A DNA stretch of 42,128 nt. It comes from Caldithrix abyssi (GTDB lineage Bacteria; Calditrichota; Calditrichia; Calditrichales; Calditrichaceae). The stretch lies in contig DRQG01000030.1 in assembly GCA_011369465.1 (NCBI GenBank), positions 1 to 42,128 of the forward strand, read 5' to 3'. Below, piece after piece: positions 6,051 through 42,128 of this stretch. Every line of letters starts with the position of its first letter. Position 1 is the stretch's first letter. Below the pieces are notes generated by a model. That model saw nothing but the letters and a program-made list of their open reading frames with translations. It ran no database searches and was not told the DNA's origin. Both the position numbers and the translations under genes were made by a program.

Positions 6051-6860
6051 ATGAGCAGACAGGCAAGCGGAATTATATATGATATAAAAAAATACGCCAT
6101 ACACGACGGACCGGGCATCCGTACCACGGTTTTTTTGAAAGGCTGTCCGCTGGACTGCTGGTGGTGTCACAATCCCGAAAGCCGGAATCCCGAACCACAG
6201 CCACGCGGCACCATGCGGCCGGTAAAAAACCTGCCTCTGCTGCAGAACGATCGGAACCTGATTGGCAACGAAGTGACCGTAGAACAGGTGATGGAAGAAA
6301 TCCGTAAAGATGCCATGTTTTACGAGCAGTCTGGCGGCGGTGTAACCTTTTCCGGCGGCGAACCACTGTTACAATTTGACTTTTTACATGCGCTTCTGAA
6401 AGCTGCCAAAGCGGAGGGCATACATACCATTGTGGATACAACCGGCTATACGTCATATCACCATCTGGAACAGCTAATGCCTGTGACGGACTTGTTTCTG
6501 TATGACATTAAATTGTTAGACGACGCATTACACGAAAAATACACCGGTGTATCCAACCGGCTTATTCTGGATAATCTGAAAAAACTGGATCAGGCCGGAG
6601 CTTCCATACTGGTGTGCGTACCGCTGATTCCCGGTATTACCGATACGGAAGCCAATTTAAAGGCTCTCGCCCGATTTTTGCTGGAAAATACTTCCTTGCG
6701 TGAAATCGAATTATTGCCCTACAACAATATGGGAGAACATAAATACGAACGGATCGGCATGCCCAACCGGATGGGGCACAAATCGATACAAGACGAAGAT
6801 GAATCACAACAGAAAAAGAAAATTTTTACACAAAAAGGAATAACTGTGTTGGCAGACTAA
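6051..6860 (+). CDS. hypE: Glycyl-radical enzyme activating protein (radical SAM), presumed HypD activase
   Basis: A 269-residue radical SAM protein. The cluster motif GCPLDCWWCHNPE holds Cys32, Cys36 and Cys39 (CxxxCxxC), and GGGVTFSGGEPLLQ is the conserved SAM-contact region. Glycyl-radical activases abstract hydrogen from a Gly of their partner; the nearby HypD (8166) is the only partner in view. Unusually, the stretch after the radical SAM motif, where activases of this group normally carry an eight-Cys ferredoxin insertion for two extra 4Fe-4S clusters, is short and has no cysteine (about residues 43-72). The protein is correspondingly shorter than the usual 300 or so. hypE here means hydroxyproline dehydratase activase, not the hydrogenase maturation gene. 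Confidence 0.88.
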   Translation: MSRQASGIIYDIKKYAIHDGPGIRTTVFLKGCPLDCWWCHNPESRNPEPQPRGTMRPVKNLPLLQNDRNLIGNEVTVEQVMEEIRKDAMFYEQSGGGVTFSGGEPLLQFDFLHALLKAAKAEGIHTIVDTTGYTSYHHLEQLMPVTDLFLYDIKLLDDALHEKYTGVSNRLILDNLKKLDQAGASILVCVPLIPGITDTEANLKALARFLLENTSLREIELLPYNNMGEHKYERIGMPNRMGHKSIQDEDESQQKKKIFTQKGITVLAD

Positions 6861-6927
6861 GAATTTAACTTGATTGTTGAATATTTCGTGGTGTTATTGA
6901 TTCTTAGCAAAAGAGGCAGTGAGAATA

Positions 6928-7328
6928 CCAATAATCAACACGGAATGTCTAATGTCCAAATTTAAAGATGATAATTGAGTGATCCGTGTTGGATATTGGA
7001 TATTGAAAATGCAAAAAAGGAAGAATAACCAATAATCAACACGGAATGTCCAATGTCCAAGTTAAAAATGATAATTGAGTGTTCCGTGTTGGATATTGGA
7101 TATTGAAAATGCAAAAAAGGAAGAATAACCAATAATCAACACGGAATGTCCAATGTCCAATTATAAAAATGATAATTGAGTGTTCCGTGTTGGATATTGG
7201 CTATTGAAAATGCAAAAAGGGAAAAATAACCAATAATCAACACGGAATGTCCAATGTCCAATTATAAAAATGATCTTTGAGTGTTCCGTATTGGATATTG
7301 GATATTGAGAGTACAAAAAAAGGATGAC
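6928..7328. repeat. Four tandem copies of a 101-bp stem-loop repeat
   Basis: Units begin at 6928, 7029, 7129 and 7230 (spacing 101, 100, 101). Each has a left arm CCAATAATCAACACGGAAT, a loop of about 33 nt containing GTCCAATGTCC and TTAAAAATGATAATTGAG, a right arm GTTCCGTGTTGGATATTGG, and an A-rich linker (GCAAAAAAGGAAGAATAA). The arms are complementary at 16 of 19 positions plus one G-T pair. Units two and three are nearly identical, which indicates recent duplication. Together with the gene-bearing copy they fill the 526-bp gap between the activase gene and the four-helix-bundle gene. Confidence 0.92.
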
Positions 7329-7832
7329 TAACTAAATATGTAAACGGAATTACTAATATCTACTTTAAAATTAAAGGGTAAGAAAAATGGTCCAAAAAAA
7401 TGATTTCGACTTACAAGATCGTTTTATTGACTATGCCGTAAGAATTATAAATGTAGCCAATGCCCTAAAGAGTGATAAAGTGGGTAATCATATTAAAAGT
7501 CAACTATTGAGAAGTGGTACAGCTCCGGCCTCAAATTACGGAGAAGCACAAGGGGCTGAATCCAGACAAGATTTTATTCACAAATTAAAAATTGCTTTGA
7601 AAGAATTAAGAGAAACTGAGGTCTGGTTAAAAATATTAGTACGGTCTTCTTTACTCGCAAAGGAAAAATTAGAACCGTTGCTTAATGAAACGGATGAATT
7701 AATTTCCATCCTATATAAAAGTATCGATACTGCAAAGAAAAATATTGGCAAAAAATAAAAATGATAATTGATTTTTCTGCTTGTCCGCCCGTAGCTGGTT
7801 TTGGTTATTGGTAGCACAAAAAGAAAGAATAA
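7329..7832 (+). mobile_element. Gene-bearing copy of the stem-loop repeat (S23/IVS-like element)
   Basis: Before the gene, the sequence from about 7329 (AACTAAATATGTAAACGGAAT, then TACTAATATCT and TTTAAAA) aligns base by base with the left half of the repeat. After the gene, TAAAAATGATAATTG (7756-7770) matches the right half of the loop, followed by a GC-extended right arm ending in TTGGTTATTGG (7803-7813). The gene thus lies exactly where the short loop is in gene-less copies, and its stop codon is made from repeat sequence. This recalls the intervening sequences in 23S rRNA genes of Leptospira and Coxiella, where S23 genes sit inside a stem-forming insert. Mobility is inference. Confidence 0.6.
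7387..7758 (+). CDS. Four-helix-bundle protein of the S23/23S rRNA intervening-sequence family
   Basis: A 123-residue, all-helical protein. LLRSGTAPASNYGEAQG (about residues 40-56) followed by DFIHKLKIALKELRETEVWL is the conserved core of the S23 four-helix-bundle family, whose fold is shared with the accessory protein Avd of diversity-generating retroelements. Members form pentameric basic bundles and may bind nucleic acid; their role is not established. The start has TTAAAGGGTAAGAAAA as ribosome site. The gene interrupts the activase-HypD pair and is surrounded by seven gene-less copies of the same repeat. No reverse transcriptase or template/variable repeat pair is present. Confidence 0.9.
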   Translation: MVQKNDFDLQDRFIDYAVRIINVANALKSDKVGNHIKSQLLRSGTAPASNYGEAQGAESRQDFIHKLKIALKELRETEVWLKILVRSSLLAKEKLEPLLNETDELISILYKSIDTAKKNIGKK

Positions 7833-8135
7833 CCAATATCGAACACCCACCATAGGTGGACAAGCGGAATATCCAATATCCAATTTAAAAATGATCATTG
7901 AGTGTTCCGTGTTGGATATTGGCTATTGAAACTGCAAAAAAGGAAAAATAACCAATAATGAACACGGAATATCCAATATCCAATTTAAAAATGATCATTG
8001 AGTGTTCCGTGTTGGATATTGGCTATTGAAACTGCAAAAAAGGAAAAATATTCAATAATGAGCAAGGAATATCCAATTTCCAATTATAAAAATGATCATT
8101 GATTATTCCGCTTTTCCGCCTGTGGCGGATGTTGC
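7833..8135. repeat. Three further stem-loop repeat units between the four-helix-bundle gene and hypD
   Basis: Left arms start at 7833, 7952 and about 8051. The first unit has a GC-extended left arm (7842-7865) with an inner CCACC-ATA-GGTGG hairpin; the last has an extended right arm (8110-8133) with CCGCC-TGT-GGCGG. Loop and right-arm sequences of the first two units are almost identical from the ATCCAATATCC motif onward. This explains the 407-bp gap before hypD; only about 30 bp (8136-8165) remain for the hypD ribosome site AAAGAGG. Confidence 0.9.
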
Positions 8136-8165
8136 CTATAAATTATTAAACATAAAGAGGCAATC

Positions 8166-10526
8166 ATGACAGAACGCATTCAAAAACTTCGCGAACAGTC
8201 GCTTAACGCGCAGGAGCGCATCGATGCTGAGCGCGCCGTTTTGCTGACCGAATTTTATCGCAGCGCGGAAGCTCAGCGGCATTCCGTTCCCGTAACCCGG
8301 GCGCTGGCTTTCAAATATATACTGGAACACAAAACCATTTGCATCAACGAAGGTGAACTTATCGTGGGCGAACGGGGCAGCGCGCCCAAAGCCACGCCGA
8401 CCTATCCGGAAATCTGCCCGCATACCCGGCAGGATTTGGAAATCTTGCACGAGCGGCCCAAGATTTCCTTCAAATCCGATCAAGAGACGCGGCGGGTCTT
8501 AACCGAAGAGGTCTTTCCGTTCTGGACCGGCCGGGCCATCCGCGACCGCATTCTTTCCGAAATGGATAGCGAATGGTTGGAGGCCTATAAAGCGGGCGTG
8601 TTTACCGAGTTTATGGAACAACGGGCGCCCGGCCATACGGTGCTGGATGATAAAATCTACCGCAAAGGCATGCTGGATTTTAAAGAGGACACAAAACGCA
8701 GTATGGGAAATCTGGATTATTTCAACGATTCCGAAGCCCTGGCCAAACGCGAAGAATTGAGGGCCATGGACATCGCCGCCGACGCCCTTATCCGCTTTGC
8801 GGAACGGCACGCCGAGGCGCTGGATGAGCTGGCGGAGCAGGAAGGTGATTTGACGCGAAAAAATGAACTGGAAAAAATGGCCGCGATTTGCCGCAGGGTA
8901 CCGGCGCATGCGCCGCAGACCTTCTGGGAAGCTCTGCAATACTACTGGTTTGTCCATCTGGGGGTGGTAACCGAATTGAATACCTGGGATTCCTTTAATC
9001 CCGGCCGGCTGGATCTGCATCTTTGGCCCTTTTATCAAAAGGAAATGGCCAGGGGAAGTTTAACCAAAGAACAGGCCAAAGAGTTGCTGCAATCTTTTTG
9101 GGTGAAGTTTAATAATCAACCGGCCCCGCCCAAAGTGGGCGTAACGGCCAAAGAAAGCAACACCTATACCGATTTCTGCCTGATCAATGTGGGTGGAGTG
9201 ACGGCAGAGGGCGAAGACGCCAGCAATGAAATGAGTTACCTGATATTGGACGTAATCGAAGAAATGCGCCTATTGCAGCCCAGTTCCATGGTGCAAATCA
9301 GCAAAAAAAATCCCGATCGCCTGCTGAAACGGGCCATGGAAATCATAAAAACCGGATACGGCCAACCGTCTTTGTTCAATACGGATGCTATCGTACAGGA
9401 AATGGTGCGCCAGGGCAAGGATATCGTGGACGCTCGCCTGGGCGGCGCCAGCGGATGTGTAGAAGCCGGCGTGTTCGGCAAGGAAAGCTACATTCTGACT
9501 GGTTATTTCAATCTGGTCAAAGTGCTGGAAATTACCCTGAATAACGGCGCAGACCCGCGCAGCGGAAAACGAATTGGTCTGCAAACCGGAGCGGCGGAAA
9601 AATTTACATCTTACGGAGAACTGTTTGACGCTTTTACCAAACAACTGAATTATTTCATCGATATCAAAATAAAAGGGAATCGCATCATCGAGCAAATTTA
9701 TGCCCGCTATATGCCCGCGCCGTTCCTTTCTATCCTGATCGATGATTGTATTGCCACAGGCAAAGATTACAACGCTGGCGGCGCCCGCTACAACAGCTCT
9801 TATATTCAGGGCGTGGGGATGGGCACCATTACCGACTCGCTCAGCGCCATCAAATATCATGTTTTCGAACATAAAAATTTCACCATGAAGCAGCTTTTGC
9901 AGGCGTTAAAGGCAGACTTCGCCGGTTATGAGGATATTCGCCAGAAGCTTTTGGACGAAGCGCCCAAATACGGCAACGACGATGCCCGAGCAGACGAGAT
10001 AACCCGGCAGGTGTTCGAAACCTATTTTAGCCATATCGACGGGCGCCCCAATACCAAAGGAGGACATTATCGCGTTAACCTGCTGCCTACAACGGTGCAT
10101 GTGTATTTCGGCAGCGTTCTGGGCGCAACGCCCGACGGCCGCAAAGCCGGCGTCCCGATTTCCGAAGGCATTTCGCCAGTACAGGGTGCCGATACCAACG
10201 GGCCAACGGCTGTGCTCAAGTCGGCTGCTAAAATCGATCATCTGCGCACCGGCGGCACTTTGTTGAACCAGAAGTTTACGCCGCAGGTTTTGGCCAGCGA
10301 AGACGGCCTGAACAAGGCAGTACAGTTGGTGCGGACGTACTTTCGGATGGACGGCCATCATATTCAATTTAACGTGGTAACGGCCGAAACCCTGCGCAAG
10401 GCCCAAGGCAATCCCGAACAGTACAGGGACTTAATTGTGCGCGTGGCCGGGTACAGCGATTATTTTGTGGATTTAACGCCCGAACTGCAGGAAGAAATCA
10501 TTCGCCGGACGGAACAGGAACTTTGA
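8166..10526 (+). CDS. hypD: trans-4-hydroxy-L-proline dehydratase (glycyl radical enzyme)
   Basis: A 786-residue glycyl radical enzyme. The thiyl-radical motif is GCVE (Cys431, Glu433) and the glycyl loop VAGYSDYF has Gly762. The active-site residues I recall for Clostridioides difficile HypD (F152, H160, D278, S334, F340, C434, E436, T645, G765) all occur here at a constant offset of three: F149, H157, D275, S331, F337, C431, E433, T642, G762. This separates it from choline lyase, glycerol dehydratase and pyruvate formate-lyase. It converts trans-4-hydroxy-L-proline to pyrroline-5-carboxylate and water, and needs strict anoxia and its activase. No proC-type P5C reductase is visible in the window. 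Confidence 0.96.
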   Translation: MTERIQKLREQSLNAQERIDAERAVLLTEFYRSAEAQRHSVPVTRALAFKYILEHKTICINEGELIVGERGSAPKATPTYPEICPHTRQDLEILHERPKISFKSDQETRRVLTEEVFPFWTGRAIRDRILSEMDSEWLEAYKAGVFTEFMEQRAPGHTVLDDKIYRKGMLDFKEDTKRSMGNLDYFNDSEALAKREELRAMDIAADALIRFAERHAEALDELAEQEGDLTRKNELEKMAAICRRVPAHAPQTFWEALQYYWFVHLGVVTELNTWDSFNPGRLDLHLWPFYQKEMARGSLTKEQAKELLQSFWVKFNNQPAPPKVGVTAKESNTYTDFCLINVGGVTAEGEDASNEMSYLILDVIEEMRLLQPSSMVQISKKNPDRLLKRAMEIIKTGYGQPSLFNTDAIVQEMVRQGKDIVDARLGGASGCVEAGVFGKESYILTGYFNLVKVLEITLNNGADPRSGKRIGLQTGAAEKFTSYGELFDAFTKQLNYFIDIKIKGNRIIEQIYARYMPAPFLSILIDDCIATGKDYNAGGARYNSSYIQGVGMGTITDSLSAIKYHVFEHKNFTMKQLLQALKADFAGYEDIRQKLLDEAPKYGNDDARADEITRQVFETYFSHIDGRPNTKGGHYRVNLLPTTVHVYFGSVLGATPDGRKAGVPISEGISPVQGADTNGPTAVLKSAAKIDHLRTGGTLLNQKFTPQVLASEDGLNKAVQLVRTYFRMDGHHIQFNVVTAETLRKAQGNPEQYRDLIVRVAGYSDYFVDLTPELQEEIIRRTEQEL

Positions 10527-16273: not shown

Positions 16274-16711
16274 CGGATAGTACACAGAGTAGAAGTGACG
16301 GGGAACTGGATACTGGATGCTTGATGCTGGAAACTTGAAATTTTCGAAGCGTAGCGAAGAACCCGCCGTGGCGGGGGGAACTGGGAATGAAATGAAAAAT
16401 GACAAAAGACAAATGAAAAAACTTTGTGTTCTTTGCGGCCTCGGTGGTTGTATAAAGCAGGGGTAAAGGCACAAAGTAGCAAGTGATGAGTAATTAGAAA
16501 ATAGAAATTGGAAATTGGAAACTTGAAACTGGGAATTGGGAACTGGGAACTAATAACTTAATAACTGAGAACTGTTAACTGAGAACTAAAAACTAACAGC
16601 CAATGGCCAAGAGCCAACAGCCAAAAGACCGGAATTTCGAATATCGATTAATGATTTATGATTTAAGAACTGATAACTGAGAACTAACAGCTAACAGCCA
16701 ATAGCTAATCA
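16274..16711. repeat. 438-bp non-coding stretch of dispersed and low-complexity repeats
   Basis: No gene was seen. From 16362 there is a CCCGCC-GT-GGCGGG hairpin. At 16461-16518 lies a 58-bp sequence found again at 42001-42058. From 16501 to 16705 the DNA consists of short near-repeats of seven to nine bases, first GGAAATT/GGGAACT types, then AACTGAGAACT and AACAGCCAA types. It lies between the convergent ends of the second MerR gene and the Wzi gene. Confidence 0.85.
16461..16518. repeat. Dispersed 58-bp repeat, copy 1 (copy 2 at 42001-42058)
   Basis: Begins GGGTAAAGGCACAAAGTAGC and ends in GAAATTGGAAATTGG. It matches 42001-42058 at 54 of 58 positions in the same orientation, 25.5 kb away. 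Both copies continue into AT-rich filler and later share GGGAACTAATA. Confidence 0.9.
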
Positions 16712-41843: not shown

Positions 41844-42128
41844 TTCCTATTGTGCCGCAAGATTTATCTTGCGTATGAGTGCAAAGTACATAGTATTTAG
41901 TACTTAGTACAGAGTAGTGAGTAGCAAGTGACAGGTGACGCGTGACGAGAAATCAATTACGAATCATTCAATTACGAATTACGAATTAACAGGCATATAG
42001 GGGCAAAGGCACAAAGTAACAAGTGACGAGTAATTGGAAAATAGAAATTGGAAATTGGGAACGGGTATAGAATTACGAATCATTCAATTACGAATTACGA
42101 ATTAAAAGTTTTTAACCGGGAACTAATA
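41844..42128. repeat. Repeat-rich intergenic end of the window
   Basis: Immediately after the dehydrogenase gene a hairpin CGCAAGA-TTTA-TCTTGCG lies at 41856-41873, without a T run. It is followed by AGTAC-type short repeats. A 35-bp sequence starting AATTACGAATCATTC occurs exactly twice (41955-41989 and 42071-42105). Between them lies copy 2 of the 58-bp dispersed repeat (42001-42058). No gene was seen. Confidence 0.85.
42001..42058. repeat. Dispersed 58-bp repeat, copy 2 (copy 1 at 16461-16518)
   Basis: Begins GGGCAAAGGCACAAAGTAAC; differs from copy 1 at four positions, all transitions. Confidence 0.9.

Follow-up and report, generated by a model that had tools for sequence, protein, structure and literature searches.

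The stretch of DNA analyzed here (the window) comprises 42,128 nucleotides of a Caldithrix abyssi contig. Within it, a 1.3-kb gap between an activase gene and a glycyl-radical-enzyme gene is the site of a small open reading frame and a series of repeats, all on the + strand. The frame at 7387-7758 (+) encodes 123 amino acids and was assigned by profile search to the Pfam family 23S_rRNA_IVP (PF05635, E = 5e-19), with a score of 68.9 bits against a curated cutoff of 33.8. Proteins of this S23/IVP family are usually annotated as four helix bundle protein and are widespread, with no assigned function. The relevant features of the window are as follows.

2255-2415, + strand: gene-less counterpart of the coding unit by alignment, between genes for a GntR-type regulator and a proline racemase
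2416-2560, + strand: further degenerate gene-less copies of the same repeat family (match at 2505-2536, 88%)
6051-6860, + strand: upstream host gene, radical-SAM glycyl-radical-enzyme activase (PF04055/PF13353)
6927-7022, + strand: gene-less hairpin unit, 93% identical to 7124-7223
7024-7122, + strand: gene-less hairpin unit, 96% identical to 7124-7223
7124-7223, + strand: gene-less hairpin unit with arms at 7124-7146 and 7183-7205 (RNA fold z = -5.4)
7225-7319, + strand: gene-less hairpin unit with a G-rich arm at 7290-7306, 93% identical to 7124-7223
7316-7386, + strand: degenerate left half of the coding repeat unit, 64 to 76% ungapped identity to gene-less units
7387-7758, + strand: S23/IVP four-helix-bundle gene in the loop of one repeat unit (PF05635; third-position-biased substitution in relatives)
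7756-7835, + strand: right half of the coding repeat unit, which opens with the TAA stop codon (alignment to 2255-2415)
7865-7945, + strand: gene-less hairpin unit, 93%, its left part changed by a nested palindrome of the CCGCC..GGCGG type
7947-8045, + strand: gene-less hairpin unit, 93% identical to 7124-7223
8047-8139, + strand: last gene-less unit, divergent, 84% identical to 7124-7223 over 8047-8110
8166-10526, + strand: downstream host gene, glycyl radical enzyme (PF02901/PF01228), on the same strand as the S23 gene

Seven gene-less units of ~100 bp lie in the gap, on both sides of the S23 gene, with 84 to 96% identity to the unit at 7124-7223. Their arms, such as CCAATAATCAACACGGAA / TTCCGTGTTGGATATTGG, enclose the linker TTATAAAAATGATAATTGAG. 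Across the whole genome, 14 matches to 7124-7223 were detected, 9 in the window and 5 on three other contigs. RNA folding, a check that had been proposed from the sequence alone, gave strong stems (z = -5.4 for 7124-7205 and -7.1 for 7082-7146), and a divergent gene-less unit folded weakly (z = -1.7). The hairpin register at this locus is ambiguous because the tandem units pair equally well between neighbors (G-rich arm, spacer, C-rich arm of adjoining units) as across the linker. A separate short palindrome of the CTTGTCCGCCCGTGGCGG type is nested in some units (2345-2367, 7780-7800, 7840-7862, and 8105-8130).

The S23 gene interrupts one unit of this repeat, its frame occupying the position of the linker TTATAAAAATGATAATTGAG. 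When the frame was removed in the alignment, the joined flanks matched gene-less units end to end, as expected from the sequence-only reading, which had placed the gene in the loop of a repeat unit and regarded the gene-less units as its noncoding counterparts. The best counterpart of the joined flanks is the unit at 2255-2415, located 5 kb upstream within the gene's own cluster. Identical positions on the left side, relative to 2262-2402, read GGATGACTA, and those on the right side, relative to 2255-2415, read TAAAAATG..ATTGATT.TTC.GCTTGTCCGCCCGT.GC; the stop codon TAA is indeed the start of the conserved TAAAAATGATAATTG. The proposed comparison of the flanks with random DNA separated the two sides: the right flank aligns to 2255-2415 far above chance (score 92; top of 2,000 shuffles, 41), whereas the left flank taken alone is within composition-matched chance (score 49; shuffles mean 30, maximum 56). 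The left flank is 76% identical, ungapped, to 7936-7990, and the last unit (8047-8139) matches 7755-7808 with 80% identity across 54 nt. Intact left arms of the window type (e.g., AATATCCAATATCCAACAAGGAATATCCAATG in L274) accompany relatives of the protein that are 51 to 55% identical to it (L249, L250, L252, L253, and L274). A perfect pair of 17 nt (7290-7306 and 7868-7884, 100% complementary) also spans the gene.

The architecture of a 23S rRNA intervening sequence (IVS), an S23 frame between stem-forming complementary sequences, is therefore present in the window, where the element's own left arm is degenerate. The element is free-standing: it lies between two protein genes rather than in a 16S or 23S rRNA helix, and no rRNA was detected in L011, the locus checked for such a location. 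The S23 gene is the sole frame between the arms of the unit, with no transposase there. Together, these results suggest that the S23 gene and its arms probably form a single, putative IVS-type mobile element with gene-less derivatives.

How far this architecture extends was assessed by local alignment of the upstream flank of each S23 gene with the reverse complement of its downstream flank (threshold score of at least 30). The window's genome (G000, 98.5% complete) encodes 12 S23 genes, most of them flanked by arms of short tandem words that vary by gene (AAAGG(G/C)AC, AGTACAT, AGTTATTG, AATTACG, GGGAACT, GGAGTGTT, and others). A profile of these 12 genes matches the solved structures 2rld and 2gsc (five chains per entry). 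The test was then taken beyond G000 to relatives and 80 loci from many phyla. The threshold was reached by 56% of S23 genes (n = 119), 0.8% of mismatched S23 flank pairs, and 7.5% of other genes at the same loci (77 S23 genes drawn across phyla; Mann-Whitney P = 1.7e-16). The final set comprised 186 S23 genes from many phyla, of which 179 had flanks that could be used. Inverted arms are clear in 108, with a period of 7 in 85 and of 8 in 19; among S23 genes with both flanks available, ~40% have no clear arms of this kind. The 12 proteins of G000 diverge too much for their joint alignment to serve as a query; the wide survey was therefore seeded with four canonical S23 proteins, and its results tilt toward that subgroup. 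The free-standing IVS architecture noted at the window was thus found to be general.

The elements have a consistent polarity. G exceeds C in the 5′ arm of 88 versus 16 S23 genes (P = 3e-13), and ordinary strand skew does not explain this, since on the same strand the matching 3′ arm is rich in C. The S23 subfamily of the window tends to show the opposite arm polarity to this majority. The 5′ arm starts a median of 2 nt past the upstream stop codon, and S23 genes between codirectional neighbors are almost always in sense (86 sense, 3 antisense; P = 4e-22). Substitutions among related S23 genes are concentrated at the third codon position (0.48 per site versus 0.23 and 0.13), and the protein is therefore maintained. 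Stem mismatches lean slightly toward G-U over A-C (68:60 in an earlier set, 186:149 in a later one), weak support for pairing at the RNA level.

We then examined whether the arm word travels with the protein. Among 57 pairs of related S23 proteins (at least 58% identity) with unrelated neighboring genes, 22 share the same word; permutation gave a mean of 1.2 and a maximum of 6 word-sharing pairs in 2,000 trials. The word AAAGG(G/C)AC, for example, accompanies one protein lineage in G000 (L001), a Desulfobacteraceae genome (L062), a Nitrospirae genome (L069), and a KSB1 genome (L073). Because words are shared by protein lineage, the S23 protein and its arms behave as one heritable unit.

Arrays without a gene follow the same rule in the genomes sampled. 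Genome-wide statements here are based on samples from two genomes, 334 kb of G000 and 400 kb of a closed relative (G001). In the G000 sample, tandem arrays of period 7 to 8 occur at 1.85 per kb between genes and 0.08 per kb within them, and 7 or 8 is the dominant intergenic tandem period. In these two genomes, arrays match the arms of resident S23 genes: among 66 arrays of G000, 59% match its own S23 arms, 14% those of G001, and 10% random sets; among those of G001, the corresponding values are 58% for its own arms, 6% for those of G000, and 0% for random sets. Of 10 informative gaps in the G000 sample, 9 start with the G-rich array (9:1); the gaps of G001 are too few and mixed to show a trend. 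The array test was used in place of a stricter search for gene-less hairpins in gaps, which returned three. Composite gene-less clusters were also observed: at 16305-16709 and 41878-42104 of the window, the words GGGAACT, AGCCAAT, AATTACG, AGTACAT, and others follow in succession, and on another G000 contig (L165:5300-7271) many word families are packed in two clusters flanking one gene. Such clusters (also L173) may be hairpins nested in hairpins.

Empty sites in relatives, a check suggested at the outset, were found at the sdhA-sdhB junction, which we compared in 50 genomes of one family (seed genome included). The junction is empty, with a gap of 2 to 16 bp, in 29 genomes. Another 12 genomes have a hairpin without a gene at this position (9 clear cases and 3 weaker ones), 6 have an arm-flanked S23 gene, and 2 have other content; in the remaining genome (L232), a 44-bp remnant retains the end of an S23 reading frame. 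This remnant shows that internal deletion takes place; to this extent the proposed origin of gene-less units holds, and for such units in general it is one possibility beside independent insertion. Two of the S23 genes at this site (L185 and L239) are closer to L005 and L018 of the window's group than to most S23 genes of the sdh site, so the junction was hit more than once. At this junction, 12 of the 13 gaps examined for gene-less hairpins have the G-rich arm on the 5′ side; with the 9 of 10 gaps in G000, this indicates that gene-less hairpins are also oriented with transcription. No obvious target-site duplication distinguishes empty from full sdhA-sdhB sites, the empty ones being divergent and 2 to 16 bp in length, and neither transposition nor an exact junction was seen at the compared loci.

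The same architecture links the element to two sets of known sequences. S23 genes in two relatives of the window's genome, L044 (G001) and L023 (G007), lie within 23S rRNA (Rfam LSU) and are classical IVSs. Their arms are built of tandem TCAAGGA/ACAAGGT words, and the two proteins are 71% identical and share one arm word. IVSs with S23 frames are known from Coxiella and Leptospira (PMC4990558). The likeness extends to the position of S23 in the loop of a stem with complementary ends, the sense orientation, and the sporadic distribution. In contrast to rRNA IVSs, the window element and almost every other one are located between protein genes, the arms are tandem 7- to 8-mers with one word per protein lineage, and gene-less copies are dispersed in the same genome.

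The second set is that of orphan heptamers, reported for Xanthomonas (GGGAATC) and Nostoc (GGGGA(C/T)T) in PMC4692102 and for Beggiatoaceae (TAACTGA arrays) in PMC4679880, which have the same period and intergenic position as the arrays described here. PMC4692102 describes the Xanthomonas heptamers as often forming inverted pairs and finds no general association with mobile elements; the excerpts of both papers mention no S23 or four-helix gene or other coding partner. A scan of 369 gammaproteobacterial genomes for (GGGAATC)3 returned one, G471. This genome, chosen by the word GGGAATC alone, was predicted to hold a matching S23 gene, and its sole S23 gene, truncated, indeed lies between GGGAATC arms. 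In G259, found only through the backward control word, one S23 gene has closely similar arms. Among the cyanobacteria, G579 carries an S23 pseudogene with GGGGATT (GGGGAYT) arms; in G559, G569, and G536, GGGGATT arrays occur although no S23 gene carries that word, which shows that arrays can persist without the gene. The GGGAATC and GGGGA(C/T)T heptamers are in this way tied to S23 through the arms in G471 and G579.

Cyanobacterial plasmids carry S23 genes in arms as well. In Anabaena sp. 90 plasmid pANA02 (L340:1195-1563), an S23 gene with AGGTGAC arms is located between cas6 and cas4 of a type I-D CRISPR operon. An association of 23S rRNA IVP proteins with CRISPR loci has been reported (PMC10910872), and insertions like L340 may explain it. 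Two Calothrix plasmids with the same S23 gene were considered as a case of recent movement and set aside, since they share a common 3.6-kb block and not the element alone.

Several other readings of these data were weighed. S23 could be an RNA-binding regulator or processing partner, with the operon-gap arrays as its mRNA sites in a posttranscriptional regulon and its own arms autoregulatory. The sense orientation and fixed polarity of gene-less hairpins, their placement right past stop codons and ahead of the next start, the constraint on the protein, and the suggestion of such a role for TAACTGA arrays by MacGregor in 2015 (PMC4679880) are all consistent with this. A regulon would sit poorly with sites so weakly conserved (29 of 50 sdhA-sdhB junctions empty), with word turnover at one site, with host genes of all kinds, and with elements of one S23 lineage at unrelated genes in different phyla, and we regard the regulatory reading as unlikely. 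Heptamer hairpins might instead spread by replication slippage and host repair, S23 being a separate mobile gene that inserts in them. Arrays in genomes lacking a matching S23 gene, the many-word composite clusters without S23 genes, and the pair L086 and L089, which are 68% identical at one site with differing arms, would fit such a passenger; the sharing of words by related S23 genes at unrelated sites across phyla (22 of 57 pairs versus 1.2 expected) and the match of resident arrays to resident arms argue against it, and we consider it quite improbable.

A conventional mobile element fares worse. The sequence-only reading had likened the gene-less units to the MITEs of an autonomous transposon, and movement of this kind is at most conjectural: the unit encodes no transposase, target duplications did not appear, and reverse transcriptase was undetectable in G000 and G001. 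An ordinary DNA transposon with terminal inverted repeats and MITEs, mobilized by a transposase from elsewhere in the genome, would account for inverted ends, empty sites, gene-less derivatives, and repeated hits at one site. It is nevertheless very unlikely given that the ends of different elements have a period but no sequence in common, that the sense orientation is near absolute, that the sole gene is a four-helix bundle without a known catalytic site, and that no target duplication appeared, although the empty sites compared are 2 to 16 bp and divergent. Finally, S23 might act with a reverse transcriptase, like its homologue Avd of diversity-generating retroelements, which is reported to have a homologous four-helix-bundle fold and to resemble PF05635 in structure (PMC10053308); sense orientation is what an RNA intermediate would produce. 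Unlike the Avd systems, G000 with its 12 S23 genes and the closed G001 with its 9 have no detectable reverse transcriptase (RVT_1), nor was RVT_1 found in G471, G259, G017, G020, or G579. A resident reverse transcriptase is therefore not required, and the retroelement reading, largely rejected on this ground, has only a slender chance of being correct.

We accordingly return to an IVS-type element formed by the S23 gene and its arms. The survey suggests that this mobile hairpin belongs to a class that is widespread and apparently new to the literature. Tentatively, and with somewhat less than even confidence, we propose that S23 proteins are sequence-specific partners of a very large class of self-spreading hairpins in which the protein lineage and a seven-base word coevolve, that IVSs and orphan heptamers are two faces of this class, and that it spreads with no recognizable transposase or reverse transcriptase, probably via RNA hairpins. 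In the IVS-type model itself, which we consider more likely than not, arms of facing tandem 7-base (sometimes 8-base) words would form a stem in the transcript with the S23 frame in its loop, and each S23 lineage would be accompanied by its own word. Insertion would take place in sense, either between cotranscribed genes or within a hairpin of 23S rRNA, at positions that may tolerate one more stem-loop, and the promoterless S23 gene would be expressed from the host operon. We infer that the S23 protein binds its own word in the folded arm; this predicted binding would promote copying or insertion of the hairpin both in cis and in trans, and strand transfer would come from the host or from an activity that escaped recognition here. 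Copies lacking the gene would persist as solo hairpins and could account for a substantial fraction of the orphan heptamer arrays found in such genomes. The strict orientation favors a step at the RNA level or one coupled to transcription. For gene-bearing copies, the bias could also come from selection on a promoterless gene that needs a host promoter, although the gene-less hairpins are oriented as well.

The closest organizational parallel is the REP/REPIN system with its RAYT gene (TnpA-REP), in which the flanks of one gene likewise resemble palindromic repeats that are scattered, without the gene, through the genome that carries it. RAYT is a catalytic Y1 transposase, whereas S23 has no known catalytic site and its arms are tandem 7- to 8-mers. 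IVSs (PMC4990558) and heptamer arrays were known separately and are joined here; in the open-licence literature we found no published link between IVSs and heptamer arrays or between S23 and tandem-word arms. The proposed class would tie together three loose ends: the S23/IVP family, the unexplained origin of rRNA IVSs, and over-represented heptamers without a known source. If it is correct, many bacterial genomes contain mobile hairpins with a word-specific protein and no known mobility enzyme, and the pairing of protein lineage with short word would be a new repeat-recognition code that can be read from sequence. That pairing is directly testable by binding assays.

Several S23 genes depart from the common arrangement. 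L006 and L012 (both in G000), L304, and L316 lack clear arms and are possibly domesticated or old. L010 (G000) is flanked by direct rather than inverted arrays; L266, 90% identical to it, shares the gene and a downstream stretch, and the upstream sequence differs beyond the array. A search for S23 in phage records returned no match. In G006, a weak S23-like match (L054, contig C197) lies ~0.2 kb from a reverse transcriptase and looks like the Avd of a diversity-generating retroelement. In G475, two S23 genes (L310 and L315) form a tandem pair within about 0.7 kb.
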